Under the pieces are notes generated by a model. That model did not search any database. It was not told the DNA's origin and saw only the letters and a program-made list of their open reading frames with translations. The translations under genes and the position numbers were made by a program. 64,000 nt of DNA, from NCBI RefSeq assembly GCF_023806465.1, contig NZ_JAMSLS010000001.1, positions 496,001 to 560,000 of the forward strand, in the 5' to 3' direction. The stretch's first letter is position 1. Every line of letters starts with the position of its first letter. Source of the stretch: Thermomicrobium sp. CFH 73360. Lineage in GTDB: Bacteria; Chloroflexota; Chloroflexia; Thermomicrobiales; Thermomicrobiaceae. This document shows positions 31,512-47,233 of the stretch, piece after piece.

Positions 31512-32924
31512 ATGGCCGGGCCGGTCGTCGTTCCAGTATTGCCCACGTATCTCGACCCCGAACGAGTGACGCATTGTGCCATTCCCTATGGCCGGGCGAT
31601 TGCTCAGCGCCTGGGGAGCGAGCTCGTCCTCCTCTCGGTCGTCGAGATCACCGAGTCACTTCGCTCGTACTTGGAAGCGGAGGGTGAGCAGGTCGAGCGA
31701 CTCATTCGGCGCTGGCTGGAGCAGCGCCGGGAAGCGATCGACCGTCTCGCTGCAGTTGTGGACGGTGTACGGACGCGTGTCGAGGTTGTCCTTGGGGAAC
31801 CCGCGCAAGAGATTGTCGCCTTTGCCAACCAGCATCAGGCTGCCGTCATCGTCATGAGCAGCCACGGCCGGCTCGGTGTCGCCCGACTGCTGGTTGGGAG
31901 TGTGACATTCAGCGTGATGCAGCGTGCACAGCAACCAGCACTTGTCGTTCGTGCCCGGGTTCCCGTACCGGCCCCCAATGCACCGGTGAGCTTTTCACCG
32001 GTCCTGGTCCCACTTGACGGCTCATCGCTCGCCGAAGAGGCGATCGACACCGCTCTGGCAGTCCTGGGTCAAGGCCATGAACCGTTGGAGCTCCATCTCT
32101 TCCACGTCTTGACCAATGACGAGGAGCCAGTTCGTTGGGAGGACTACCTTCAGAGCATCGCACAGCGTCTTCAGGACCGTGGTTATTCCGCTACCTGGAG
32201 CCTAGGACACGGGCCAGTGGCCGAGACGATCGCGCAAGAAGCCGTCGAACGACGCGCTGGTCTCATCGCGATGGGCACGCACGGTCTGAGTGGCGTCCGG
32301 CGCGTCCTCCTTGGGTCGACAGCCGAGCACGTGCTCCACGCGACGACCGTTCCGCTGCTCCTGCATCGTCCGCGCGCTGTCCGCCGGGCACTGGAAGAAC
32401 AGCACGCTGCTGCCGGACCGCTCCGCGCACGCGACATCATGACCCCGAACCCGATCACTGTCGGGGCTGACGCAACGCTCGAGCAGGTCGCAAAGCTCAT
32501 GCTGGACCATCAGATCGGCGCTGTTCCGGTCGTTGACTCAGAGGGGCGTCTCCTCGGGTTGATTCGCGAAGAGGACTTCCTGGCACGGGAGCGCCCGATC
32601 CCCTTCTCGGCATTCCGGGCACCGCAACTCTTCGGACGGTGGGTAACTCCGGAGCGGCTCGAGGAGATCTATGCGGAGGCACGCTCGTTGCAGGCTGGTG
32701 AGGTCGCCCACCCGCCAGAGGTGACCGTTACCGAGGAGACGCCTCTCAGCGAGCTCGCTGAACACATGGTCGCGGCCAATGTCCGCCACGTGCCAGTGCT
32801 CCGCGATGGGAAGCTCGTCGGTATCGTGACGCGGCACGATGTCCTCAAAGCGGTCGCCCACGGCAGTACACCTCGCGGCGGTGCTGGAGCACCGAGCGAC
32901 CAACATCTTCCTGCGACGGACTGA
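31512..32924 (+). CDS. Universal stress protein with two USP and two CBS domains
   Basis: The 470-residue soluble protein has four modules. The first USP domain (about 5-148) ends VMSSHGRLGVARLLVGSV, and the second (about 160-290) carries AMGTHGLSGVRRVLLGST. Both have the G-x(2)-G-x(9)-G(S/T) nucleotide-binding pattern. A CBS pair follows (about 305-365, DIMTPNPITVGADATLEQ, and 400-455, PPEVTVTEETPLSEL). USP and CBS domains bind adenine nucleotides, so an energy- or stress-sensing role is plausible. It is 79 bp upstream of two tandem P-type ATPases and is probably cotranscribed with them. Shine-Dalgarno GGAGGGAGGGA precedes ATG 31512. Confidence 0.88.
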   Translation: MAGPVVVPVLPTYLDPERVTHCAIPYGRAIAQRLGSELVLLSVVEITESLRSYLEAEGEQVERLIRRWLEQRREAIDRLAAVVDGVRTRVEVVLGEPAQEIVAFANQHQAAVIVMSSHGRLGVARLLVGSVTFSVMQRAQQPALVVRARVPVPAPNAPVSFSPVLVPLDGSSLAEEAIDTALAVLGQGHEPLELHLFHVLTNDEEPVRWEDYLQSIAQRLQDRGYSATWSLGHGPVAETIAQEAVERRAGLIAMGTHGLSGVRRVLLGSTAEHVLHATTVPLLLHRPRAVRRALEEQHAAAGPLRARDIMTPNPITVGADATLEQVAKLMLDHQIGAVPVVDSEGRLLGLIREEDFLARERPIPFSAFRAPQLFGRWVTPERLEEIYAEARSLQAGEVAHPPEVTVTEETPLSELAEHMVAANVRHVPVLRDGKLVGIVTRHDVLKAVAHGSTPRGGAGAPSDQHLPATD

Positions 32925-33003
32925 CCGGTCTGAGCGCGAATTTGTGTCATCGCTGCAGAGAGGCTCGACTGAGGACAAAGGCTCGAGGAAGAGGAGAGCC
33001 TCG

Positions 33004-35823
33004 ATGACGCATCCGCTGCATGGCAGTACGCCTCCGGTGGGTACAGAGACCCAAGCATGGCATGCCTTGCCAGCGGAGCGAGTCCTTGAGCTTCTCGGCA
33101 GCACGGAGGACGGACTCTCAGCGGCTGAGGCGAAGCACCGGCTGAGTACGTACGGCCCGAACCAGCTTGAAACCGCTCCGCCACCAAATCCGCTCCTGAT
33201 TTTCCTCCGTGAGTTCCGGAGTCCCTTGATCTATGTGCTCCTGATCGCCGCACTGGTCATCGCGGCGCTCCGAGAGTGGGTCGATACCGCCGCAATCATG
33301 GCAGTCCTGCTCATCAACGCAGCCATTGGAACCTTTCACGAACTCCGCGCTGAGCGCGCTATCCGTTCGCTCATGCAATTCCTCAGTCCACGAGCGCGGG
33401 TGATCCGCGACGGTGAGGAGCAGCATATCCCAGCGCGTGAGCTCGTCCCCGGCGACATCGTGCTCCTCGAGTCCGGGATTCGCGTTCCGGCCGACTTACG
33501 GTTGCTCGCGACGACGGCATTGATGGTTGACGAGTCGGTCTTTACTGGGGAATCCATCCCCGTTGTCAAGCAGATCGAGCCGGTGCCGCCCGACACACCA
33601 CTCGCCGATCGCCGTTCCATGGCCTACCTCGGCACGATCATCACCAGTGGTCGGGGAATCGGTGTCGTTGTCGCCACCGGTCCTGGGACCGAACTCGGCA
33701 AGATTGCCCAGTTAGCGCGGGGTGAGGCGCAGCCGGAGACACCGTTGCAACGTCAAATGGCGCGCTTTGCTCGTCTCGTTGCCCTTTTCGTCGTCATCGG
33801 GGTCGGAGTGATCAGTGCTTTCGGACTGCTGCGCGGCGATCCCTTGGTTCTCCTCTTCAAATTCGCGGTCGGCGCAGCTGTCGCAATCGTCCCCGAAGGG
33901 CTCCCGATCGTCCTGACACTGGTCTTCGCTGTGAGTGCCCAACGCATGGCTCGACGCCGTGCCATCGTCCGCCAGCTCGCCGCCGTCGAGACACTCGGAA
34001 GTACCACAGTCATTGGGTCAGATAAGACGGGGACCCTCACCGAGAACCGGATGACCGCTCACTCCGTCTGGGCGGCCGGAGAGCTTCTCAGCCTGACCTC
34101 GCCACACGATGGAAGTAAGCACGCCCAGACACTCCACGTGCCAGTTCACGACCTCCACAGGTACTCGTTCTGGCATCTCCCTCCAGCAGCCCGCGTCCTG
34201 CTCACTGGCGTGCTGGCCAATGAGGCGACACTCGTGCCGAGGGAAGAAACCGAACAGGAACTGGAGGGAATCGGCGATCCGACCGATATCGCCCTCTTGG
34301 TCGCGGGTGCTCATGCTGGCCTCGTTCGTGAAGAAGTCGAGCAGGTGTACCCCATCGTCGCGGTCGTCCCCTTCGAACCGGAACGGCGCTTCGCTGCTGT
34401 GGTCTCGCGGGTCGGGGACAACCTGTACCTGTTCGCCAAAGGCGCACCGGAACGCATCATGGAGATGTGCTCGAGTTGGTCCACTCCCACGGGGACGGCG
34501 CCGCTGGATGCAGATCAGATTCTTGCTGCAGCCCAAGATCTTGCCGCTCAGGGGCTCCGCGTCCTCGGTTTCGCCGCTGGTCCGATTGCACCGGAGACTG
34601 CTGAACGGCTCGAGGAACTGCTGCAGCCGCATGACCTCACCTTCCTCGGGCTCGTCGGCCTGTGGGATCCGCCCCGTCCGGGCGTGCGGGAAGCGATCGC
34701 ACAGTGTAACGAGGCGGGCATTCGCGTCGTGATGATTACCGGCGACCATGCGGCGACTGCTGCGGCGATTGCCGAGCATCTTGGGATTGCTGCACGCCAG
34801 AGTGGGGTTCTAACTGGTCGCGAACTCCAACGATTGTCGGACGAGGAACTCCGTGAAGCAGTCCGACGCGTCTCGGTCTTTGCCCGAGTCGAACCGGAGC
34901 AGAAACTGCGCATCGTGCGAGCCCTGCAGGCGAACGGCGAGACGGTCGCGGTTACCGGCGACGGGGTCAACGATGCACCAGCACTCCGCGCCGCCGAAAT
35001 CGGTGTCGCGATGGGGAAGAGCGGAACGGACGTCGCACGGGAAGCCGCCGATATCGTCCTGACCGACGACAACTTCGTGACGATTGTCGCGGCTGTCGAA
35101 GAGGGGCGAGGGGCCTTCGACAACCTTCGCAAAGCCACGTTCTTCCTTATCTCCACCGGCGCCGCGATGATCTTTATCCTACCCTTCGCGATCCTAGCCA
35201 ACTGGCCTCTCCCTTTCTATCCTGCACAATTGCTCTGGCTCAACTTGGTCACCAACGGCCTTCAAGACGTTGCCATGGCATTCGAACCCAAAGAGCCCGG
35301 CCTCATGCGCCGCCGGCCCCGGCCGCGCCGGGAGGGAATCCTTTCCCCGCTGCTGTGGGAACGCACTCTGCCGAGCGGGCTCGTGATGGCAGCTGGAACC
35401 CTTTACCTCTTCGACTGGACACTCCGGGCTACCGGTTCACTCGATCTCGCACGGACAGTGGCACTCACGACGATGGTCATCTTCCAGAACTTCCAGGTGG
35501 GGAACGCACGGTCCAGCACCCGTTCCCTCTTCCGGATGAGTCCGATCTCGAACCGCGTGCTCTTTGTTGCTGTCCTCGCAGCATTCGGCATCCACGTGGC
35601 TGCACTCTATCTCCCAATTACCCAGTTCGTGCTCCGCGTTGAGCCGATCCCACTCGAGATCTGGCCGCGCATCATTGCCATCGCTGCGACGATCCTCGTG
35701 ACGGTGGAGCTGCACAAGCTAATCCGTCGTCGCTGGCCGCGTCGAGACTCCTGGGAGGCAAGTCACACCCAGACGCCCGAGACTCCAGTGCAACCAGCGG
35801 CGACTGCACGCGCTCTCAACTGA
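33004..35823 (+). CDS. P-type cation-transporting ATPase (first of tandem pair)
   Basis: This is a 939-residue P2-type pump with an N-terminal cation ATPase domain, actuator motif (DESVFTGESIPV), phosphorylation site DKTGTLT (Asp340), KGAPER in the nucleotide domain and TGDGVNDAPALR. It has about ten membrane helices. In TM4 the PEGLP motif is intact (Glu298). Relative to the SERCA Ca2+ sites, TM5 Glu771 is replaced by Met (LISTGAAM) and TM6 Asp800 by Asn (NLVTNGLQD). The transported ion is therefore not predictable; Ca2+, Mn2+ or a monovalent ion are all open. ATG 33004 has a GAGGAAGAGGAG site upstream; homology does not extend before it. Confidence 0.88.
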   Translation: MTHPLHGSTPPVGTETQAWHALPAERVLELLGSTEDGLSAAEAKHRLSTYGPNQLETAPPPNPLLIFLREFRSPLIYVLLIAALVIAALREWVDTAAIMAVLLINAAIGTFHELRAERAIRSLMQFLSPRARVIRDGEEQHIPARELVPGDIVLLESGIRVPADLRLLATTALMVDESVFTGESIPVVKQIEPVPPDTPLADRRSMAYLGTIITSGRGIGVVVATGPGTELGKIAQLARGEAQPETPLQRQMARFARLVALFVVIGVGVISAFGLLRGDPLVLLFKFAVGAAVAIVPEGLPIVLTLVFAVSAQRMARRRAIVRQLAAVETLGSTTVIGSDKTGTLTENRMTAHSVWAAGELLSLTSPHDGSKHAQTLHVPVHDLHRYSFWHLPPAARVLLTGVLANEATLVPREETEQELEGIGDPTDIALLVAGAHAGLVREEVEQVYPIVAVVPFEPERRFAAVVSRVGDNLYLFAKGAPERIMEMCSSWSTPTGTAPLDADQILAAAQDLAAQGLRVLGFAAGPIAPETAERLEELLQPHDLTFLGLVGLWDPPRPGVREAIAQCNEAGIRVVMITGDHAATAAAIAEHLGIAARQSGVLTGRELQRLSDEELREAVRRVSVFARVEPEQKLRIVRALQANGETVAVTGDGVNDAPALRAAEIGVAMGKSGTDVAREAADIVLTDDNFVTIVAAVEEGRGAFDNLRKATFFLISTGAAMIFILPFAILANWPLPFYPAQLLWLNLVTNGLQDVAMAFEPKEPGLMRRRPRPRREGILSPLLWERTLPSGLVMAAGTLYLFDWTLRATGSLDLARTVALTTMVIFQNFQVGNARSSTRSLFRMSPISNRVLFVAVLAAFGIHVAALYLPITQFVLRVEPIPLEIWPRIIAIAATILVTVELHKLIRRRWPRRDSWEASHTQTPETPVQPAATARALN

Positions 35824-35876
35824 CCTCGTTTGGCACCAATGATGTGTGGGAAGACACACACCCAGCGGAGCGTCTC

Positions 35877-38675
35877 GTGCGGAGTATAGAAGCGGTGCAA
35901 GGGCCCGACAGCTCGGCGAGTCATGAACCTGCCTGGCACGCGCAAACGGCAGCCGACGTTATTGGCGCTCTCAAGAGCTCACCAAACGGGCTCTCCATCG
36001 CCGAGGTGCGGAAACGTCTTCACCAGTATGGCCCGAACCAGATCGCCGAAGTATCACCGTCTAACCCGCTGGCCATCGTTGCCCACCAATTCGCCAGTCC
36101 CCTGATTGTCACATTGGCGCTGGCTGCGCTCGTCGCCGGCCTTCTCGGCGAATGGATCGATGCAGCAGTGATCGTCGCCGCTCTCGTGATCAATGCCTTG
36201 TTCGGGTTCCTCCAGGAATGGCGCGCCGAATCTGCCATCCGTTCACTCCTGCGCTATCTTGCGCCTAAGGCCCGCGTTCTCCGTGACGGCCTCGAACAGA
36301 TCGTCGATAGCAGGGAACTTGTACCCGGGGACATCGTGTTGCTCGAGTCGGGCGTTCGCGTACCGGCCGATCTTCGACTCCTTGCCACCACCGCTCTGCT
36401 GATCGACGAATCGGTGCTCACCGGCGAATCAGCCCCGGTCGCAAAGCGGCCCGATCCGGTCGCCGCTGACACGCCGGTCGCCGATCATACCTGCATGGCA
36501 TACCTCGGGACCGTGGTAACGAGTGGTCGAGGGCGAGGCATCGTCGTCGCCACGGGAAGCCGCACCGAGGTGGGTCGCGTCGCTGCCATCGCCCAACAGG
36601 AAATCGCACCCCCTACCCCCCTGCAGCAGCACCTCGCGCGCTTTGCGCGGACGGTGGCTGTGCTCGTGCTGCTGGGGATCTTCAGCATTGGAGCCTTCGG
36701 CCTTCTCCGTGGTGACGAGCTCGGAACAATTCTCGTCTTCGCCGTTGGCGCGGCTGTGGCGATCGTCCCCGAAGATCTTCCGGTTATTCTCACGATCGTT
36801 TTCGCCGTCAGCGTCCAGCACATGGCACGCCGGAACGCGATCGTCCGGCATCTCCCGGCCGTTGAGACACTTGGGAGTACGACTGCGATCGGCTCCGATA
36901 AGACGGGCACGCTCACAGAAAACCGCATGACCGTCCGGTTCCTCTGGGCTGCAGGCCAGCGGAGGGAAATCGGGTCGGGTTCTCTGAAACACCTGACCGA
37001 GTCACCAGCTGTTCATCTCTCAGCTCAGGCATCCGGTTTCGAAGCGCTTTGGAAAACGCTTGAACCTCATACACTCGTGCTCCTTGCTGGCGTCCTGGCC
37101 AACGAAGCCCAACTCACTCCAGCCCCAGAGCTCGATCGCGAAGGGGTCGGCGATCCGATCGACATTGCTCTACTTGTCGCGGCACGGCAGGAACTGGCTG
37201 ACCCGAACAGGCTTCGTGAGCAGTTCCCCTTGCTGGCGATGCTCCCGTTTGAACCAGAACGGCGGTTCGCCGCCGCGCTCTGCACCGTTGGAGAGCAACC
37301 GACGGTCTTCGTGAAGGGAGCTCCGGAGCGCGTCGTCGAGATGTGCACATGCTGGCTCAGCAGCACCGGCCCTGCTCCACTCGCCCCACAAGAGATCGCG
37401 GACGCGGCTGCCGAGCTCGCGCAAGCCGGTTTTCGCGTCCTCGGGTTTGCCGCAGGGGCTGTGGAGGGAAGCGACGAATCGGTCTTCGCGCAGCTCAGCG
37501 AGCTCGTCTTTCTCGGGCTGGTTGCCTTCTGGGATCCACCACGCCCAGGCGTGAAGGAGTCGATCGCCCAGTGTCATGCAGCCGGTATCCGTGTGCTGAT
37601 GATTACCGGTGATCACGCCGGAACCGCCGCGGCGCTCGCAGCCGAACTCGGTATTGCCCCGCCCGGAAGCCCTGTCCTCACCGGACGGGAGCTTGCCGAG
37701 CTCGACGAGGCACAACTCCGCGAACGGGTTCGCACTGTCAACGTGTACGCCCGCATCGAGCCGGAGCAGAAATTGCGCATTGTGAGGGCACTGCAAGCTC
37801 TCGGCGAAACCATTGCGGTCACGGGTGACGGCGTGAACGACGCCCCTGCTTTACGGGCAGCTGATATCGGCGTCGCAATGGGTAAAAGTGGAACCGATGT
37901 TGCGCGTGAAGCCGCCGACATCGTGCTTGCTGACGACAACTTCGTCACGATCGTGGCGGCGGTTGAGGAAGGTCGTGCTGCGGCAGACAACCTGCGTAAA
38001 GCGACCTTCTTCCTGCTCTCCACTGGCGCGGCGACCGCGTTCCTTTTGCCCTTGGCTCTCTTCCTTGGGTGGCCGCTCCCTCTTTATCCGGCACAGCTTC
38101 TCTGGCTCAACCTGGTCACCAACGGCGTACAGGATATCGCGCTCGCCGTCGAACCGAAGGAGCCAGATCTTTTGAGACGTCGCCCGCGTCCGCGCCGGGA
38201 GGGGGTCCTTTCGATGCTCCTCTGGGAGCGCATCGCCTTGAGCGGTCTCGTCATGGCGCTCGGCACACTTTGGATCTTCCAGTGGACGCTGGAGCGTTTT
38301 GGCTCACTCGACCTCGCCCGGACGGTTGCACTTACAACAATGGTCCTCTACCAGACATTCCAAGTCGGCAATGCGCGCTCCAGCGGGCGTTCAGTCTTCC
38401 AGCTTCATCCCTTGTCCAACCGCTTCCTCTTCCTCGCCGCAGCTGCAGCATTGCTGCTCCACATCCTGGCCCTTCACACACCACTTCTGCAGTTCGTGCT
38501 CCGGGTTCAGCCAATCCCATTGGAACTCTGGCCACGCATGGTCGTGCCGGCAGCGAGCATCGTCGTCGCTGTGGAACTGCACAAGATGATCCGCCGGCGC
38601 TGGCCATACCCTTCCTGGGAGCTGAGCAGTACTCTGGCCTCCTCCACGACGGCAACTCCATCATCCGATAGCTGA
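35877..38675 (+). CDS. P-type cation-transporting ATPase (second of tandem pair)
   Basis: This is a close paralogue of the preceding gene, alignable along its whole length. It has DESVLTGESAPV, DKTGTLT (Asp341), KGAPER, TGDGVNDAPALR and the same C-terminal helices. The TM4 motif is PEDLP instead of PEGLP, placing a second acid beside Glu299. The TM5 position equivalent to SERCA Glu771 is Thr (LLSTGAAT), and TM6 reads NLVTNGVQD. The differences suggest the two pumps carry different ions or have different affinity. GTG 35877 is preferred because GGAG lies 6 bases before it; GTG 35844 would add 11 residues without a ribosome site. Confidence 0.86.
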   Translation: MRSIEAVQGPDSSASHEPAWHAQTAADVIGALKSSPNGLSIAEVRKRLHQYGPNQIAEVSPSNPLAIVAHQFASPLIVTLALAALVAGLLGEWIDAAVIVAALVINALFGFLQEWRAESAIRSLLRYLAPKARVLRDGLEQIVDSRELVPGDIVLLESGVRVPADLRLLATTALLIDESVLTGESAPVAKRPDPVAADTPVADHTCMAYLGTVVTSGRGRGIVVATGSRTEVGRVAAIAQQEIAPPTPLQQHLARFARTVAVLVLLGIFSIGAFGLLRGDELGTILVFAVGAAVAIVPEDLPVILTIVFAVSVQHMARRNAIVRHLPAVETLGSTTAIGSDKTGTLTENRMTVRFLWAAGQRREIGSGSLKHLTESPAVHLSAQASGFEALWKTLEPHTLVLLAGVLANEAQLTPAPELDREGVGDPIDIALLVAARQELADPNRLREQFPLLAMLPFEPERRFAAALCTVGEQPTVFVKGAPERVVEMCTCWLSSTGPAPLAPQEIADAAAELAQAGFRVLGFAAGAVEGSDESVFAQLSELVFLGLVAFWDPPRPGVKESIAQCHAAGIRVLMITGDHAGTAAALAAELGIAPPGSPVLTGRELAELDEAQLRERVRTVNVYARIEPEQKLRIVRALQALGETIAVTGDGVNDAPALRAADIGVAMGKSGTDVAREAADIVLADDNFVTIVAAVEEGRAAADNLRKATFFLLSTGAATAFLLPLALFLGWPLPLYPAQLLWLNLVTNGVQDIALAVEPKEPDLLRRRPRPRREGVLSMLLWERIALSGLVMALGTLWIFQWTLERFGSLDLARTVALTTMVLYQTFQVGNARSSGRSVFQLHPLSNRFLFLAAAAALLLHILALHTPLLQFVLRVQPIPLELWPRMVVPAASIVVAVELHKMIRRRWPYPSWELSSTLASSTTATPSSDS

Positions 38676-38735
38676 TCGCCAGTCCGAGGCTTGATGCCAA
38701 CACGACCAGTAACGCACCAGGTCGAGCAGGCGATG

Positions 38736-39640
38736 TCATGACTCTGCGTGGCTGAGCGTGCCGCGAACCACCAGGGCGGTCAGCACCACGGCGAAGAGGT
38801 TCCCGACGAGGACCGACGACTCCGCGTGCGCGAGCAAGGACCCACTGCCCTTCACCACGTCCAGAATGAAGAGGATCACCATGGTAAAGGCATGACTGCC
38901 AAGGAGGTTTCCCACCACCGGGTCATAGGATCCAGCGCGCATCCCAGCTATCGAGACGACAATTTCGGGCAACGAGGTGACTACTGCCAGGACGCTGAGT
39001 CCGAAAAACCCAGTCGTCACCCCGGTCTGCTCGACAAGCTCCGTCGCCGCCCCGATGAGCAAACGCGCCGCGAGGACCACGACGAGCGTCGCTGCAGCAA
39101 AGCAGGCGGCATCTTGCGAGAGCCTGAAACGCATCTGGCTGGATGTCGCTCCGACCGGTACTGGTAGTACCACGCGCGGCGCGTCACGTGCAGCAACCAC
39201 GCTCCCCACAGGGAGGCAAGGCCAATCAGGACAGTGGCCCATCCGACGCCGAAAGGGGCAAGCTGCGACGGAGTAACGATCCCAAGCGCAGCACGGGCGA
39301 GGACAATGACCGCCAGGACTCCGGCCATCGCCGGATCGATGATGACCCGGGTGGGGATCCGTACCTGGAGAGTCAGAAGGTCAGCGACCGCCAGCACCAG
39401 CATGTTGCACAGACACAAGCCGAAAAGATCACCGATCGCGAAATTCGCAGCGCCACTCCGCACTGCGATCAGATTCCGGCAGTGAGGTTGCACCAGCGAG
39501 GAGGATGGCACCGATCAACGCGTGCCCGGGCACAGTGTGCTCGGCCAGTTTCTCAACCCGCCACATCGATTCCCAGCCAGCACGATAAAAGCCACGCTGG
39601 GACTGAACACGACAAGCGTTCCCCGCACGCTGACCGTCTC
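38736..39640 (-). pseudogene. Frameshifted Na+/Ca2+ exchanger (CaxA/YrbG family)
   Basis: Pieces of one cation/Ca2+ antiporter are found in order but in different frames. TM1 (LVVFSPSVAFIVLAGNRCGG, about 39575-39625) is followed after a shift by the alpha-1 repeat VEKLAEH..ALIGAILLAGATSLPE. After a second shift near 39475 comes LIAVRSGAANFAIGDLFG. After a third shift near 39125-39175 comes the second half with SVLAVVTSLPEIVVSIAGM and DPVVGNLLGSHAF, the alpha-2 repeat. At least three frame changes mean no intact protein can be made. It lies tail-to-tail with the two P-type ATPases. Confidence 0.8.
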
Positions 39641-39675
39641 CCCATCGCCTTGTTAGAAGCGATGTCAGAGTGTCC

Positions 39676-42189
39676 TCAACGGCGCACACCCTCGTAGAGG
39701 AGCTCCCGTGTGCGCGCTGCCACCTCGTCCGGGTCGACCTGGACACGCGCCACGCCGGTTTCTATCGCCGCGCGAGCGACTGCCGCCGCTACCGCGGGTG
39801 GGACGTTCAGATCCAGGCTATCGGGGATGACAAACTGTGGGGAAAGCTGGCGCGGTGTCACCAACTCAGCGATCGCCCGCGCTGCAGCCAGCTTCATGGC
39901 ATCGTTAATGTCCCGAGCACGCACATCGAGGGCTCCACGGAAGACACCAGGGAAAGCGAGCGAGTTATTCACCTGGTTCGGGAAATCAGAGCGGCCAGTC
40001 GCCACGACGAGCGCACCGGCCTCGTAGGCAAGGTCTGGGTGAATTTCTGGATCAGGATTCGCCAAGGCGAAGATAATGGGGCGGGAGGCCATCGTCCGGA
40101 TCATTTCCGGCGTGAGGATATTCGGACTAGACAGGCCAATGAAGGCATCCGCTCCAACGAGCGCATCCGCCAGACTCCCTCGCACCCCCACCTTATTCGT
40201 GAGCCGAGCAATCTCCATCTTGTAGCGATTCATCCCTACTTCGCGGTCGCGGTAGATGGCACCGTGGCGGTCGCAGAGCACGATGTCACCGACACCATAG
40301 ACGAGGAGCAACTTCGCCGTGGCGATCCCAGCCGCGCCGGCGCCGTTGATCACGATCTTCGCCTCACCGAGCGGCGTCCCGCGCAGCTTGAAGGCGTTGA
40401 GGAGACCCGCCAAGACTACGATGGCGGTCCCATGCTGGTCATCGTGGAAAACCGGCATATCGAGGCGCTCCTTGAGTGCCGCCTCGATTTCGAAGCACCG
40501 TGGGGCCGAGATGTCTTCCAGGTTGATACCACCGAAGGAGGGCGCAATCGCCGCCACGATGTCGACAATCCGCTCCGGGTCACGCTCGGCGATACAGATC
40601 GGGAAAGCCTCAACACCACCCAGCGACTGGAACAGGACGGCCTTCCCCTCCATTACCGGCAGCGCCGCCTGTGGCCCGATGTCCCCAAGGCCAAGCACTG
40701 CACTGCCGTCGGTCACAATCGCCACCAGATTTCCCTTGACGGTGAGATCATAGACTGCCTCACGGTGCTGGCGAACTTCTTCGACCGGGGCGAGTGCAGC
40801 TGGCGGCAAGTAGAGCAGGTTCAGGATGTGATGGTCACGAACGGGCAACTTGCTGCGGATCTCGAGCACACCGCGGTAGCGCCGGCGAAGGTCAAGTGCC
40901 TGCTCGTTTAACGAGCGCGGCCGCCGGGAGCTCACCCGTGGGGGCTCAAAAGCCCCCTCGTAGATGTACCGCCGCGTATTCTCGGCGACCTGCTGCGGAT
41001 CGACTTGGCGCGTCGCCTCACCGGTCTCGAGCGCCGCCTGAACCACCGCAGCAGCGATTGCTGGCGCAACGCGGAAGTCGAAGATCTGCGGCACGATGTG
41101 CTCCGGCCCACGTTGCTCCGGCGGCACCAGGCTGGCGAGTGCCTCAGCAGCGTAGATGAGCGTCCGCAAGCGGATGTTGCGAGCCCCCGAATCGAGCAGC
41201 CCTCGGAAGACGCCGGGGAAGACGAGCGAGACATCCATCATGTTTGGGTAGTCTGAGCGGCCAGTCGCCACAACCGCCGCACCGGCTTGGCGCGCCAGAG
41301 TCGGATCGATCTCCGGCGTCGGCAACGCGAGGGCAAAGACAATTGGATCAGCGGCCATCGACGCCACCATCTCCGGCGTCAAGATGTTTCCTCGCGCCAG
41401 CCCAATGAAGACGTCCGCACCCTTCAGCACATCGGCGAGTGAGCCACGTCGCCGTTCTGGGTTCGTTTCCTTGGCCAGATACGCTTTGGCCCAGTTCATC
41501 CGGTAGGGACGTCCGAGGTAGATCGCGCCCGCACGGTCGCACACGATGAGGTCCTTCACCCCGACGCGCGTCAGCAGCCGGGCGACCCCGATACCGGCCA
41601 AGCCTGCGCCCGCGATCACCACCCGCACCTGGTCCAGTCGCTTGCCGACGACTTCGAGCGCATTTTTCAGCGCTCCCAGGACCAGGATCGCTGTCCCGTG
41701 ATGCTGATTCGAAAAGACTGGGATCGGTGCGGCCTTTTCCAAGTGGTCCTGAATCGTGAAGCTGTGTGGTGCGCGAATATGGTCGAGACAGATCGCCCCA
41801 AAGGTTGGGATCAACGAGCGAGCAACTTCGACGATCTCCAAAGGATCAGTCAAGTCGACGCCGATCGGGACGGCGTCCACACCGGCGAACGTCTTGAAGA
41901 GCACGGCCTTGGCCTCGAGCAGTGGTAAAGCCGCCTCAACCGGGGCCCGAGTTGGTCCGAAGAGGTCCGAGGCATCGGTCAGAATCGCCACCGTGTTGCC
42001 GCGTCCAGTGAGATCAAAAGACGCAACCTCATCCTGGCTAATGACTCGGCAGGCTTCGGCGACTCCCGGTGTGTAGACGAGGCTGAGCATCGCCCGGTCA
42101 CGCAACGGCACTTTGCTCGCGATGCCGATCAGCCCGCGATATTGCCGCCGGTATGCTAATGCTGCATCTGGCTGATCGAGCAGATACAT
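39676..42189 (-). CDS. Tandem-fused malic enzyme with degenerate N-terminal module
   Basis: One 837-residue chain holds two full malic enzyme modules (about 1-415 and 425-837). Module 2 keeps the catalytic features: Tyr460, Lys516 in MEGKAVLF, metal ligands in NLED (556-559) and HDDQHGTA (582-589), NAD loop NGAGAAGIA, and ALANPDPEI. It should decarboxylate malate to pyruvate. Module 1 keeps Tyr39, Lys94 and GAGLAGIG, but NLED is CLDH (134-137), HDDQHGTA is SNQHHGTA (160-167), ALANP is ALALP and the GLGDIGP loop is lost. Metal-dependent catalysis there is unlikely. It is not a MaeB-type fusion, since no phosphotransacetylase domain is present. ATG 42189 follows a G-rich site. Confidence 0.88.
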   Translation of the reverse strand: MYLLDQPDAALAYRRQYRGLIGIASKVPLRDRAMLSLVYTPGVAEACRVISQDEVASFDLTGRGNTVAILTDASDLFGPTRAPVEAALPLLEAKAVLFKTFAGVDAVPIGVDLTDPLEIVEVARSLIPTFGAICLDHIRAPHSFTIQDHLEKAAPIPVFSNQHHGTAILVLGALKNALEVVGKRLDQVRVVIAGAGLAGIGVARLLTRVGVKDLIVCDRAGAIYLGRPYRMNWAKAYLAKETNPERRRGSLADVLKGADVFIGLARGNILTPEMVASMAADPIVFALALPTPEIDPTLARQAGAAVVATGRSDYPNMMDVSLVFPGVFRGLLDSGARNIRLRTLIYAAEALASLVPPEQRGPEHIVPQIFDFRVAPAIAAAVVQAALETGEATRQVDPQQVAENTRRYIYEGAFEPPRVSSRRPRSLNEQALDLRRRYRGVLEIRSKLPVRDHHILNLLYLPPAALAPVEEVRQHREAVYDLTVKGNLVAIVTDGSAVLGLGDIGPQAALPVMEGKAVLFQSLGGVEAFPICIAERDPERIVDIVAAIAPSFGGINLEDISAPRCFEIEAALKERLDMPVFHDDQHGTAIVVLAGLLNAFKLRGTPLGEAKIVINGAGAAGIATAKLLLVYGVGDIVLCDRHGAIYRDREVGMNRYKMEIARLTNKVGVRGSLADALVGADAFIGLSSPNILTPEMIRTMASRPIIFALANPDPEIHPDLAYEAGALVVATGRSDFPNQVNNSLAFPGVFRGALDVRARDINDAMKLAAARAIAELVTPRQLSPQFVIPDSLDLNVPPAVAAAVARAAIETGVARVQVDPDEVAARTRELLYEGVRR

Positions 42190-42468: not shown

Positions 42469-43980
42469 TTATGCCGTCTCATCCCGGGTCCCGTAGTCAC
42501 TCGTGCCGCCGTTCGCTGCGCGGTCCCACTCCTGCCGGACGAGCCAACGCTGCAGTTTACCGCTCGCCGTGCGCGGGAGCTCCTCGACGAACCGAATCGC
42601 CCGCGGCACCTTGTACCCTGCCAGACGTGTCCGGCACCAGGCGACGAGTTCCTGCTCCGTCACCTCCATTCCCCGGCGGAGTACAACCGCAGCGACGACG
42701 CGCTGCCCCCATTCGACGTCTGGTATCCCCACGACAACCGCCTCAGCGACGGCCGGATGAGCAAGCAGCACCGCCTCGACCTCTCCCGGAAAGACATTCT
42801 CACCACCGGTGACAATCAGATCGTCACGCCGGTCGAGGACGTACAAGTACCCCTCTTCATCGAGATAGCCGATATCGCCAGTGCGGAGCCAGCCATCGCA
42901 GAAGGCACGGGCAGTCAGGTCGGGCCGGCGCCAATAGCCTGGCGTGACGACTGGCCCCCGCACTTCGATCTCCCCTGGCTCGCCCGGCTCAGCCAAGCTG
43001 CCATCCGGTCGGACGATGCGGAGCACGTTTGGATACAGCGGTTTTCCGGCCGAGCCTAACTTACGCAGTGCATCCTCAGGGGCAAGGGTCGCCAGCTGTG
43101 ATGCAGTTTCCGTCAATCCATACGTCTGCAGCACCGGCAGGCCAACGGCAGCACAGCGCTCGAGCAGTGGGCGTGGTGCTGGTCCTCCGCCAAGCAGGAC
43201 AGCCCGGAGATGCGCCGGAGAACGCCGCTCGCCGCGCTCTTCGAGCATTCGCCAGAGCATCGTCCCTACGAACGACGCGAGCGTCACCCCACGCTCGATC
43301 GCCTCATTGGCCATCACTGCGTCGAACCGCTCGTGCAGTTCAACCGCGAATCCGCCGAGAACGCTGCGAAAGAGAATCGAGAGCCCACCGACGTGAAAGA
43401 GGGGCAAGCAAAGCAGCCAGCGATCGTCTGGCAACACCCCGAGGTTCAGCTGGGAACCAACCGCACTCCACCAGTGATTGCCGTAGGTCAGCAAGACACC
43501 CTTCGGGCGGTCGGTCGTCCCAGACGTATAGATGAGCGTGTGGACCGCATCGACCTCAACGTCTCGTCGGAGTTCCACCGCTGCCTCCGGCAACCCCGCA
43601 AGGTCACTCTCGACATCAACGAGCGTCCCTGTCCAGGACGCGACTGCCGCACGCGTCGCCGGCTCGACCAGCACCACATGCGGATCAGCATCAGCCAGCA
43701 CAGTCAGGAGTTCCTGTGGGGTATGACGCACGTTGAGCGGCACCAGCACCGCACCAAGTCGGCTCACCGCATGGACGAGCACTACGAGCTCCGGCCGATT
43801 CGAGAGACACGACGCGACACGGTCGCCAGCCCGAACACCAAGTCCAGCGAGCTGACGTGCCAAGCGGTCCGCCTCCAGCGCAAGTTCCGCAAACGTCCAC
43901 GTCCGCTCGCGCCAGATCAGCGCCGCCCGCTCCGGTGTCACGGCCGCGCGCCACGCCAGCCATTCTGGAAGTCGCTTCAT
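42469..43980 (-). CDS. menE: o-Succinylbenzoate--CoA ligase
   Basis: MenE activates o-succinylbenzoate for ring closure by MenB. The 503-residue ANL-superfamily enzyme has the AMP-binding P-loop TLIYTSGTTDRPKGVLLTYG, QTYGLTETASQLATL (A5) and GWLRTGDIGYLDEEGYLYV (A7). The C-terminal domain carries ELPRTASGKLQRW with the catalytic lysine. The sequence alone would allow another acyl-CoA ligase, but its place as the last gene after menB, menA and menC supports MenE. ATG 43980 starts the conserved MKRLPEWLAWRA; the longer frame overlaps the small membrane protein gene. Confidence 0.85.
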   Translation of the reverse strand: MKRLPEWLAWRAAVTPERAALIWRERTWTFAELALEADRLARQLAGLGVRAGDRVASCLSNRPELVVLVHAVSRLGAVLVPLNVRHTPQELLTVLADADPHVVLVEPATRAAVASWTGTLVDVESDLAGLPEAAVELRRDVEVDAVHTLIYTSGTTDRPKGVLLTYGNHWWSAVGSQLNLGVLPDDRWLLCLPLFHVGGLSILFRSVLGGFAVELHERFDAVMANEAIERGVTLASFVGTMLWRMLEERGERRSPAHLRAVLLGGGPAPRPLLERCAAVGLPVLQTYGLTETASQLATLAPEDALRKLGSAGKPLYPNVLRIVRPDGSLAEPGEPGEIEVRGPVVTPGYWRRPDLTARAFCDGWLRTGDIGYLDEEGYLYVLDRRDDLIVTGGENVFPGEVEAVLLAHPAVAEAVVVGIPDVEWGQRVVAAVVLRRGMEVTEQELVAWCRTRLAGYKVPRAIRFVEELPRTASGKLQRWLVRQEWDRAANGGTSDYGTRDETA

Positions 43981-43987
43981 CGTTCTC

Positions 43988-44395
43988 TCAGATCCCTCCG
44001 AGCCCCAGCCAATCGAACGTGTAGACGAGCGCGTACGGCCACAAGAGCACCGAGTACACGATAAACCGCACAAGATCCACCTGCCGGAAGTCCACCTGCC
44101 ACGGATCGATCAGCACGAAGCCTGCTGTCCAGAGGACGCCTGCCAGCAGATAGGCCAAGAAACCGAAGACCGCTCCTCCTATGCGGCCACCGAAACGGCG
44201 CGTGCCCGCACCCACGAGCATCCACCCACCGGCGATGAGGAGCGCTGCCAGCACAACCAAGGCATTGGCAAGTCCCCGTGACGTGGCCAAAATCCGTGGC
44301 ACAACGACCGCGCACAGCGCAAAACCGAGCACGGTCACCAGGCCGCCCGTTGTCACCGCCGCAATCCGCCAGCGGGTAACGTGCTCTTCCTTCAT
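43988..44395 (-). CDS. Small membrane protein within the men operon
   Basis: This 135-residue protein has four predicted membrane helices (about 10-33, 43-63, 72-93 and 108-128). The N-terminus MKEEHVTRWR is short and probably cytoplasmic. No family was recognised. ATG 44395 overlaps the menC stop (ATGA), and menE begins 7 bp after the end, so it is translated as part of the menaquinone operon. A role near MenA at the membrane is conceivable but unproven. Confidence 0.65.
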   Translation of the reverse strand: MKEEHVTRWRIAAVTTGGLVTVLGFALCAVVVPRILATSRGLANALVVLAALLIAGGWMLVGAGTRRFGGRIGGAVFGFLAYLLAGVLWTAGFVLIDPWQVDFRQVDLVRFIVYSVLLWPYALVYTFDWLGLGGI

Positions 44396-45471
44396 CTGTC
44401 TGCTTGCCCTTCGCCCCACCGTACACCAAGCCCACTCCCGGGCGGTAGCCGGAGTCGCCCTCCCACCGGTTCGAATCGTTCCACTGTTCCCAGCGAGCGA
44501 AGCAGCACCGCGGTCGCTAATCCATGCGCTCGCTCGGTACCCGGCAGAGCTGCCGCGGTGTGCAGTGCCGCTGCGAGCCCGATTCCCGACTCGAAAACGC
44601 TGGTGACAACCGCCTCGATCCCACACCGAGCTGCCTGCTCCACTGCGGCCAGCAAGCGGCGTGGTCCACCGAGTAGCGGCAACTTCAACACGTGGACATC
44701 CGCCGCCGCCAGCGCAAGCGCTCGCTCGACCGTCTCCAGTCCAAGAAGCACCTCATCAGCGGCGACGGGCACCGGCGAACGCCGCCGGAACTCCGCAAGT
44801 TCCTCAAGCGTCCCCACCGGCTGTTCCAAGTACTCAACGTCAAGCGGTGCGACCGCTCGCGCGAAGGCAAGCGCTTGCTCGACCGTTGCAGCACCATTCG
44901 CGTCCAGTCGCAACCGTACCGTCGATCCAACCGCCGCACGCACCGCAGCGACCCGCTCCGCTTCGCTCGGCTCGAGACGCACCTTCAGCTTCAGCGTGCT
45001 GTATCCAGCCGCCACGGCCTGGCAAGCGGCTGTCACGGTTGTCTCCACATCGAGAAGCCCGATGAGCGCGTTCACCGCCACCGTCAGCCGGGCGGTCGGA
45101 TGCAGCCAGCGCGCTAGCATTACACCCTCTCGCTGTGCTTTCAGATCGAGGAGTGCGGTCTCAACTGCTGCACGCGCCGCCCGCGCCCCATCCGCCAGCG
45201 TCGGCACACGGTCGAGTGCCTGACAGAGTGACTGCTCGCCGGAGAACGCGTCCGCCTGACGAAGGCTGGTCAACCAGACTTCCGCCTCACGAAGCGCCCG
45301 GACTTCGCTCCCCGGCCACGGTGCGACGTCACCAAGCCCGATGAGGCCATCCGGCGTACGGAGCTCGACGATCAGGCCGCTTCGTTCACAGAGCTCGCCG
45401 CGCGCCGTCGCGAACGGTACTCGGAACTCTAGTCGGTAGGGCCACCAGCAGCACTGCAGCGATCTCACCAC
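44392..45471 (-). CDS. menC: o-Succinylbenzoate synthase
   Basis: MenC dehydrates SHCHC to o-succinylbenzoate in menaquinone synthesis. The 359-residue enolase-superfamily protein has the KxK motif (STLKLKVRL), metal ligands in RLDANGA, EYLEQP and VAADEVLLG, and the second catalytic lysine in HVLKLPLLGG. These match MenC; dipeptide epimerases share the fold, but men neighbours decide the call. The start is one of two consecutive GTG codons (45471 or 45468) overlapping the menA stop. Confidence 0.87.
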   Translation of the reverse strand: MVRSLQCCWWPYRLEFRVPFATARGELCERSGLIVELRTPDGLIGLGDVAPWPGSEVRALREAEVWLTSLRQADAFSGEQSLCQALDRVPTLADGARAARAAVETALLDLKAQREGVMLARWLHPTARLTVAVNALIGLLDVETTVTAACQAVAAGYSTLKLKVRLEPSEAERVAAVRAAVGSTVRLRLDANGAATVEQALAFARAVAPLDVEYLEQPVGTLEELAEFRRRSPVPVAADEVLLGLETVERALALAAADVHVLKLPLLGGPRRLLAAVEQAARCGIEAVVTSVFESGIGLAAALHTAAALPGTERAHGLATAVLLRSLGTVERFEPVGGRLRLPPGSGLGVRWGEGQADR

Positions 45472-46388
45472 AGCAGCCCTATCGCGAAGAGCACAGCAAA
45501 GATGAGCTGGAGCTGCCCCGTACGTCGCAACACTCTGTTCAGCGCTGGCCCTGAGGTTCCACCAAGCACGAGACGCACGAGCTTGACAGCCAAGGGCAGC
45601 GTCAGCAGCGGGAGTAGGAGCGCCAGTCCCCCTTGTCCTTGCAGCACAAGGAGAATGGGGACAAAGTAGGCCGCACCGACGAGGAGCGCGTACTGCCAGC
45701 GAGTTGCTCGCTCGCCAATGCGCACCGCAAGCGTCTGTTTCCCAGCAGCTCGGTCGGTCTCGATGTCACGCAAGTTGTTGACGACAAGGATCGCGGTGAT
45801 CAACGCCCCAACCGGCACCGCGGCGATCAACGCAAACCCGGAGAAACTGTCACTTTGCAGATAGGCACTGCCACCGACCGCGATGAGCCCAAAAAAGATG
45901 AAGACGAAAAGGTCACCCAGTCCGATGTATCCCAGCGGCCAAGGGCCAGCCGTATAGAGGATTCCCGCTGCGATGGAGGCAAGACCGATCAGCAGGATCG
46001 GCCAACCACCGACCCACACCAGGTAGAGGCCAAGCAGCGCTGCTGCACTGAACGTCAAGGCGACCGCCCGCTGCATTTCACCAACCGTTACGAGCCCTCG
46101 CGCGGTGATCCGCGTCGGTCCCACCCGCTCTGGCCGGTCAGCTCCCTTCAGGTAATCAAAGAGATCATTTGCGTAGTTCGTCCCGATCTGGATCAAGACG
46201 GCTGCTGCCAGCGCTGCAAGGAACGGGAACCAGCGTACTGTGCCCGTCTCGCGCACCCCAACGGCCGTACCGACCAGAACAGGGCCCACGGCAGCCACCA
46301 ACGTCGCCGGACGAGCTCCGAGCCACCACACTCGCCAGCCCAGTCGGTTGGTCTCTCGCCTGGCCGAATCGCTCGCCGGCATCGCCAT
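45465..46388 (-). CDS. menA: 1,4-Dihydroxy-2-naphthoate polyprenyltransferase
   Basis: MenA prenylates and decarboxylates DHNA to demethylmenaquinone in the membrane. The 307-residue UbiA-family protein has about nine helices and both aspartate-rich motifs: [14 protein letters not shown] (first) and [22 protein letters not shown] (second). The N-terminal [20 protein letters not shown] is typical of MenA. ATG 46388 and 46382 are both possible; GAGGTG precedes them. It sits 17 bp after menB. Confidence 0.92.
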
Positions 46389-46405
46389 TCTGGCACCTCA
46401 CTGCA

Positions 46406-47233
46406 TCAGGGGAAACGCGGGAACTTCGAGAAATCAGGCTTGCGCTTCTCCAGGAAGGCACGGTGCCCTTCTTTGGCCTCGTCAGTCAAGTAGTAGAGCA
46501 GGGTCGCATCGCCCGCGAGTTGCTGCAGTCCGGCGAGCCCGTCGGTGTCCGCGTTGAAAGCCGCCTTCAGGAAGCGGATCGCCATCGGGCTCTTCTCTAA
46601 GATCTCACGCGCCCACTGCACGGCCGTTTCCTCAAGCTTCTCGTAGGGCACGACCGCGTTCACCAGCCCCATTTCCAGTGCCTCTTGCGCGGTGTACTGA
46701 CGACAAAGAAACCAAATCTCCTTCGCCTTCTTATGCCCAACGATCCGACCGAGCAGGGTTGCTCCATACCCAGCGTCGAAGCTCCCCACTCGCGGGCCGA
46801 CTTGCCCGAACTTGGCGTGCTCGGCCGCAATCGTGAGGTCACACACCACGTGCAACACGTGTCCACCGCCGATTGCATACCCGTTGACGACCGCAATGAC
46901 TGGCTTCGGGAGATAGCGGATCTGCTTCTGCAGGTCAAGCACGTTGAGGCGAGGGATACCTTGATCGTCAACATAGCCACCCTCGCCACGCACCCGTTGA
47001 TCACCTCCCGAACAGAAAGCTTTGTCACCCGCACCAGTCAACAACACCACGCCGATTGACGCGTCGTCCCGCGCATGCGCGAACGCATCCATCATCTCCA
47101 TGACCGTCAGCGGCCGAAACGCATTGCGCACTTCAGGACGGTTAATGGTGATTTTCGCAATCCCTTCTCCCTCCAACCGCTCGTAGAGGATGTCCGTATA
47201 CTGCTTGATTGGTATCCACGTGAACTGGCTCAT
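46406..47233 (-). CDS. menB: 1,4-Dihydroxy-2-naphthoyl-CoA synthase
   Basis: MenB closes the second naphthoquinone ring from o-succinylbenzoyl-CoA. The crotonase-fold protein of 275 residues has [17 protein letters not shown], the oxyanion region [31 protein letters not shown] and [12 protein letters not shown], all MenB signatures. The C-terminal [21 protein letters not shown] is also diagnostic. AGGAGG lies 5 bases before ATG 47233. It is the first gene of the operon; menD, menF and menH are not in the window. Confidence 0.95.

Follow-up and report, generated by a model that had tools for sequence, protein, structure and literature searches.

A gene on the reverse strand of Thermomicrobium sp. 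CFH 73360 encodes a tandem malic enzyme of 837 amino acids, which very probably forms a covalent, asymmetric malic-enzyme pseudo-dimer with one composite active site. The gene occupies positions 39676..42189 (−; ATG and stop codon included) of the 64,000-nucleotide stretch analysed here, termed the window, as an intact open reading frame with GGGGTGGGG directly before its ATG. The frame had previously been described as two malic-enzyme modules in one chain, and this is borne out by Pfam: the malic (PF00390) and Malic_M (PF03949) domains are each matched twice, at 112.7 and 152.9 bits, respectively, against cut-offs of 23.1 and 23.5. Across the 3.06-Mb genome two Malic_M matches were detected, both in this frame, and the protein is the sole malic enzyme found in its own genome. 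Judged by its residues, it presumably catalyses the malic-enzyme reaction, in which malate would be converted to pyruvate, CO2 and reduced nicotinamide cofactor; malic enzyme is a link between the citric acid cycle and pyruvate.

In the proposed scheme, an ancestral single chain would have duplicated and fused, and its two sites would then have degenerated in opposite ways. Module 2 would have retained the lysine, the metal ligands and the cofactor site while its own tyrosine loop decayed; module 1 would have lost its metal and catalytic site while donating its tyrosine loop to module 2. Each chain would thereby carry one composite active site and one silent pseudo-site, the two modules pairing within the chain. 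On this view module 1 is not simply a dead half: it would donate the tyrosine and might in addition bind a nucleotide as a regulator.

Architecture of the two modules

Module 1 (residues 1–415; 40945..42189, −) has a malic-enzyme fold in which the metal and catalytic site is lost, and is the putative donor of the tyrosine segment, as assigned from Pfam and residue counts. A linker of about residues 416–424 (40918..40944, −), marked by a drop in predicted confidence to a pLDDT of 75 in block 411–420 from 94 in the preceding block, leads to module 2 (residues 425–837; 39679..40917, −). Module 2 is the catalytic core by Pfam and column counts, with the full metal and catalytic set; its closest sequence matches in the PDB are 5cee, 2a9f, 2hae and 1vl6.

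The features below all lie on the reverse strand. Module 2 contains the general-base lysine K516 (40642..40644), the metal ligands E558 and D559 (40513..40518), the HDDQHG motif at residues 582–587 (40429..40446) and the pair N741–N742 (39964..39969). In module 1 the NLED motif has degenerated to CLDH (residues 134–137; 41779..41790) and HDDQHG to SNQHHG (residues 160–165; 41695..41712), and the metal ligands and aspartates, the ALANP asparagine, the NN pair and the GLGDIGP loop are missing. The motifs quoted in the preliminary description are correct for both modules, with one amendment: the lysine is kept in module 1 (LEAKAVLF, K94). The tyrosine segment shows the opposite pattern, with YTPGVAE at residues 39–45 of module 1 (YTPGV, residues 39–43, 42061..42075) and the degenerate YLPPAAL at residues 460–466 of module 2 (40792..40812), which has an aligned one-residue insertion at 462. 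A further segment of module 1, KTFAGVD (K99–D105; 41875..41895), has Q521 and E527 in the same columns of module 2.

Reciprocal loss of active-site residues

Residues were compared across 43 conventional enzymes (40 from genomes of the window’s phylum and three from Desulfosporosinus), 95 module-1 rows and 86 module-2 rows. Counted without an alignment, Y[TS]PGV is present in 43/43 conventional enzymes, in 95/95 module-1 rows and in 0/86 module-2 rows, whereas HDDQ is present in 43/43, 0/95 and 86/86, respectively. The asparagine of NLED follows the second pattern (42/43, 0/95 and 86/86), as does the second asparagine of NN (43/43, 1/95 and 86/86). The lysine, glutamate, aspartate, both HDDQ aspartates and four asparagines are kept in all 86 module-2 rows; among the 95 module-1 rows the first HDDQ aspartate is kept in none and the catalytic lysine in 75. 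The GxDA aspartate is present in 42/43 conventional enzymes and 95/95 module-1 rows and is replaced by glutamate in 86/86 module-2 rows. This gives a strict Asp/Glu split between the modules, at D105 (41875–41877, −; 95/95) and E527 (40609–40611, −; 86/86). The K99 column, which is lysine in 95/95 module-1 and 22/86 module-2 rows, does not split cleanly.

The tyrosine itself is less sharply divided than the motif around it. It occupies its column in 43/43 conventional enzymes, 95/95 module-1 rows and 81/86 module-2 rows, the remaining five having H, C or F, and its survival in most second modules counts against the simplest form of the model. The tyrosine-loop insertion column is filled in 86/86 module-2 rows, 0/95 module-1 rows and 0/43 conventional enzymes. 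As serine follows the tyrosine in 12 of the 86 module-2 rows, the whole motif was used for scoring.

The sampling carries a bias towards the polarity found, because 75 of the 95 module-1 rows, the window’s own included, came from a scan with module-1 patterns. KTFAG[IV]DA was itself such a pattern, so that these 75 rows contain it by construction; the 20 module-1 rows found without the scan agree at K99 and D105 (20/20), and YTPGV was absent from the scan patterns. The split is unchanged in representatives at 90% identity (77 module-1 and 72 module-2 rows) and is repeated in 20 of 20 tandem genes from a whole-protein search, the source of the 20 rows just named, one of which (L184) repeats L112. 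Seven module rows shorter than 330 residues were left out (the second modules of L066, L083, L085, L125, L127 and L129, and one fragment of L117), and the rest of the L117 fragment frame, the fragments or broken frames of L123, L131 and L138 and the second frame of L085 were not counted.

The complete catalytic set, comprising the tyrosine loop, the lysine, the Glu/Asp/Asp ligands and the asparagines, is thus found in the two modules jointly and in neither alone. Module 1 has lost essential catalytic residues, as would be expected of a pseudoenzyme, although some lineages retain in it the Glu/Asp pair and one aspartate (LED with HNDQHG), so that partial metal binding is possible there. According to Harding et al. 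2021 (PMC7902834), small prokaryotic malic enzymes are tight dimers with sites built from both protomers; in MaeB, Y52, the counterpart of the YTPGV tyrosine, enters the site of the other monomer, unlike in eukaryotic enzymes, which carry the tyrosine in the same chain. Module 1 keeps and module 2 loses this partner-type segment, so the losses in the two modules complement each other within a single shared site. Because the segment is invariant in module 1 and gone from module 2, module 1 is most readily understood as forming part of the active site of module 2. The preliminary description had proposed that a covalent dimer with one pseudoenzyme half may serve allosteric control. The data support such a dimer, one of whose sites is catalytically dead, but a pseudoenzyme for control is an incomplete account of a module in which Y[TS]PGV never varies.

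Predicted structure of the tandem chain

An AlphaFold2 model of the tandem chain, built from 61 tandem sequences, has a pLDDT of 94.4 and a pTM of 0.93. When structurally characterised malic enzymes were aligned to this model, the large ones spanned both modules: all 31 of the large entries listed align from model residue 23–27 through 832–837, over 333–391 residues at an rmsd of 2.3–3.4, several entries being the same protein. A large single chain thus runs from the N-terminal segment of module 1 to the C terminus of module 2. By contrast, all 17 of the small or hybrid entries listed start at model residue 424–430, that is, at module 2. The human ME2 alignment starts at its residue 96–97, which places Y39 near residue 111–112; the catalytic tyrosine of human ME2 is Tyr112. 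On the basis of the first and last aligned residues, the tyrosine of module 1 is therefore predicted to lie in the site of module 2.

Module 2 predicted alone (52 sequences) has block pLDDT values of 40–71 over its first 70 residues, compared with 84–96 in the tandem model, as expected of a segment that depends on a partner. The isolated module is a weak control, since it aligns with the 31 large entries at similar Z scores (28–39); 20 of these alignments start at residue 1, 18 of them with an rmsd above 4, and the other 11 start at residues 10–63.

Two further comparisons bear on the same segment. The best stretch of the Pfam malic profile is 10–118 in module 1 and 57–181 in module 2, compared with 2–182 or 3–182 in four single enzymes. 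In BLAST searches of sister orders, conventional enzymes from at least 32 genomes align in two parts, the N-terminal piece to module 1 (about 10–18 to 52–72) and the rest to module 2 (about 476–820). This split is not general: other conventional enzymes align entirely to module 2, starting at about 387–446, and the strict E-value limits of the searches of the window’s phylum and of the L108 phylum would hide short pieces.

Module 1 could instead be purely structural, module 2 pairing with module 2 of another chain and using its own tyrosine, as its retention in 81 of 86 second modules would allow. That arrangement appears unlikely: the motif around the tyrosine is gone in all 86, five of which have lost the tyrosine as well, YTPGV is invariant in module 1 despite the dead site of that module, and the large-enzyme alignments connect the N-terminal segment of module 1 with the C terminus of module 2.

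Selection on module 1

Both modules are under purifying constraint in nine close pairs, with dN/dS between 0.014 and 0.076, dS being high in several of them. Within module 1, YTPGV and the Rossmann positions are nearly invariant, and conservation in the former catalytic pocket does not significantly exceed that of the average column (P = 0.08 in 35 Thermomicrobiales representatives and P = 0.33 in 42 others). Of the positions grouped with the tyrosine segment in this comparison, K99 and D105 were picked from the same data and the YTPGV part alone is independent; in the Rossmann set, K235 falls in a scan pattern. A pocket at average conservation beside a near-invariant YTPGV and Rossmann fold favours a role for module 1 in donating the crossover segment, its nucleotide fold being retained. 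The data do not support a conserved malate-like ligand in its pseudo-site, a candidate considered here, as the pocket is not significantly above average.

The conserved nucleotide-binding positions suggest that module 1 may have an added regulatory role. Module 1 might serve mainly as a sensor of a ligand such as NAD(P)(H), acetyl-CoA or an organic acid, with the tyrosine segment conserved only for holding the modules together; known bacterial malic enzymes do bear added PTA or ACT domains, the PTA domain being treated as an acetyl-CoA sensor in PMC7902834, and the Rossmann positions hardly vary. The unremarkable conservation of the former catalytic pocket argues against a conserved malate-like ligand there, and we judge a sensor role of this kind improbable. 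A combined role, in which module 1 supplies the tyrosine and also senses a nucleotide, a ligand in its Rossmann site shifting the crossover segment into or out of the site of module 2, is conceivable, if doubtful; the swapped helix of MaeB is said in PMC7902834 to take part in regulation. Were the combined role correct, the enzyme’s own duplicated copy would provide a third means of regulating bacterial malic enzymes, alongside PTA and ACT domains.

The replacements SNQHHG and NNHGLG recur within clades, as they might if module 1 had acquired a different catalytic activity. They differ among clades, however, and the pocket varies at about the average rate outside Thermomicrobiales, which makes a new activity very improbable.

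Distribution and origin

The double-module architecture is found in the window’s order and in several other phyla, as named by the titles of the genomes, mostly MAGs: Thermomicrobiales, other Chloroflexota, Desulfobacterota-type genomes, Methylomirabilota, Nitrospirota and others. Of the 61 genomes searched in the order (the window’s own included), 43 carry full-length or nearly full-length single-frame copies, nine have partial or broken copies and nine have no match. These homologues exclude a fusion caused by a lost stop codon, which the preliminary description had raised as a possible refutation. An assembly or sequencing artefact, to which the broken gene adjacent to this one in the same assembly might point, is likewise rejected as extremely improbable, since the identical single frame recurs across the order and, in a different phylum, in 30 of 247 genomes.

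In the window’s phylum, 19 of 399 genomes have a single-frame full-length copy, all in the window’s order, and one further copy is broken; five other tandem loci come from Chloroflexi- or Anaerolineae-titled MAGs (L110, L115, L117, L121 and L135). The phylum with 30 full-length copies in 247 genomes, and two partial ones, is that of a Desulfonema-titled MAG (L108); 20 of these 30 genes were read. The phylum of a Methylomirabilota-titled genome (L105) has four full-length copies in 95 genomes and two partial ones, and those of a Cyanobacteria-titled (L122) and a Nitrospirae-titled genome (L118) have 1/194 and 1/198, each match being the centre genome itself. Among the best 80 of 242 relatives, from which the pattern-scan loci were taken, 65 carry the two modules in a single frame, although L074 and L076, which run into a contig end, miss the last stretch; a further 12 are cut or broken and three are conventional single enzymes. 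The tandem gene holds the sole Malic_M matches in 16 of 20 other tandem-bearing genomes checked, some of which may be incomplete.

In a tree of 127 rows, 13 Thermomicrobiales loci among them, module 1, module 2 and the conventional enzymes each fall on one side of a branch, with SH-aLRT values of 99, 97 and 91 from a quick search run without bootstrap. The same three groups appear in a tree of 129 rows from which 118 motif-flanking columns had been removed (SH-aLRT 100, 91 and 95); both trees are unrooted, with nearly all of the conventional set from one phylum. Distances among first modules correlate with those among second modules (0.857 over 41 taxa; 0 of 2,000 permutations as high). Two module clades with correlated distances fit a single old duplication and fusion after which the modules were inherited together.

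A split two-gene ancestor was not seen among the loci read; the adjacent pair at L153 (G356) encodes two complete enzymes. On a Chloroflexi MAG contig (L117:2–4260), a second, partial tandem malic enzyme lies directly upstream of a complete one, which suggests a further duplication.

Comparison with known malic enzymes

The small NAD-dependent malic enzymes (5cee, 1vl6 and 2a9f) share the fold and have 44–50% identity to module 2 in structural alignments, but form two sites from two identical chains, whereas one site is predicted for the tandem chain. MaeB, in which malic enzyme is joined to phosphotransacetylase, is similar in length and likewise combines a malic-enzyme module with a second, degenerate enzyme-derived module, its tyrosine being given in trans (PMC7902834). 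In the tandem protein, the second component is a degenerate malic enzyme rather than PTA, is N-terminal and would itself supply an active-site segment; the PTA domain (PF01515) had no Pfam match in the 837 residues and was found in a control (L157). The large eukaryotic type, such as human ME2, resembles the tandem chain in that a single polypeptide carries both the tyrosine and the metal site (PMC7902834), and the tandem model superposes with it over both modules; the large enzymes, however, consist of one module with extra domains and assemble from identical chains, whereas in the tandem protein the cis arrangement would stem from fusion.

The ACT-domain malic enzymes of other Chloroflexota (about 480 residues) have the same core and come from the same phylum. 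Unlike the tandem protein, they have an N-terminal ACT domain (two proteins scanned) and a single complete module; Pfam found an ACT domain in L147 and L150 and no match to it in the 837 residues. Mammalian adenylyl cyclase, with its C1 and C2 domains, is also a covalent pseudo-dimer in which one site is live and the other has degenerated, although its fold and reaction are unrelated to those of malic enzyme. Searches of a library of open-access papers found no description of a tandem malic enzyme.

The protein appears to illustrate clearly, in nature, how duplicated copies can lose reciprocal functions: a symmetric two-site dimer would have become a one-site asymmetric machine, which several phyla have kept. 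The case opens to experiment the questions of why a symmetric enzyme can give up one half and what the spare half then does. For annotation it is a warning, in that a malic-enzyme score is obtained for the first half although it lacks the site, and the second half alone would be predicted not to work.

Gene neighbourhood

The tandem gene adjoins a same-strand cluster of four menaquinone-type genes (42469–47233, −) encoding an AMP-binding ligase, an MR_MLE enolase-like protein, a UbiA prenyltransferase and an enoyl-CoA hydratase (ECH). Directly downstream, a sodium/calcium exchanger gene (38721–39652, −) is interrupted by stop codons and a disturbed reading frame and is either a real pseudogene or an assembly error; a close relative has the intact gene (L063:8538–9551). 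Two adjacent cation-transporting P-type ATPase genes follow in tandem on the opposite strand (32839–38675, +). A scan of 20 flanking proteins, ten from the window or two near relatives and ten from seven other loci, led to a conserved operon context being rejected, as the flanks differ (menaquinone-type genes, a TPR protein, lactate racemase, glutamate dehydrogenase and others). Two neighbours recur: an M24 peptidase gene lies upstream in L109 and L116, and P-type ATPase genes are found near the tandem gene in both the window and L070.
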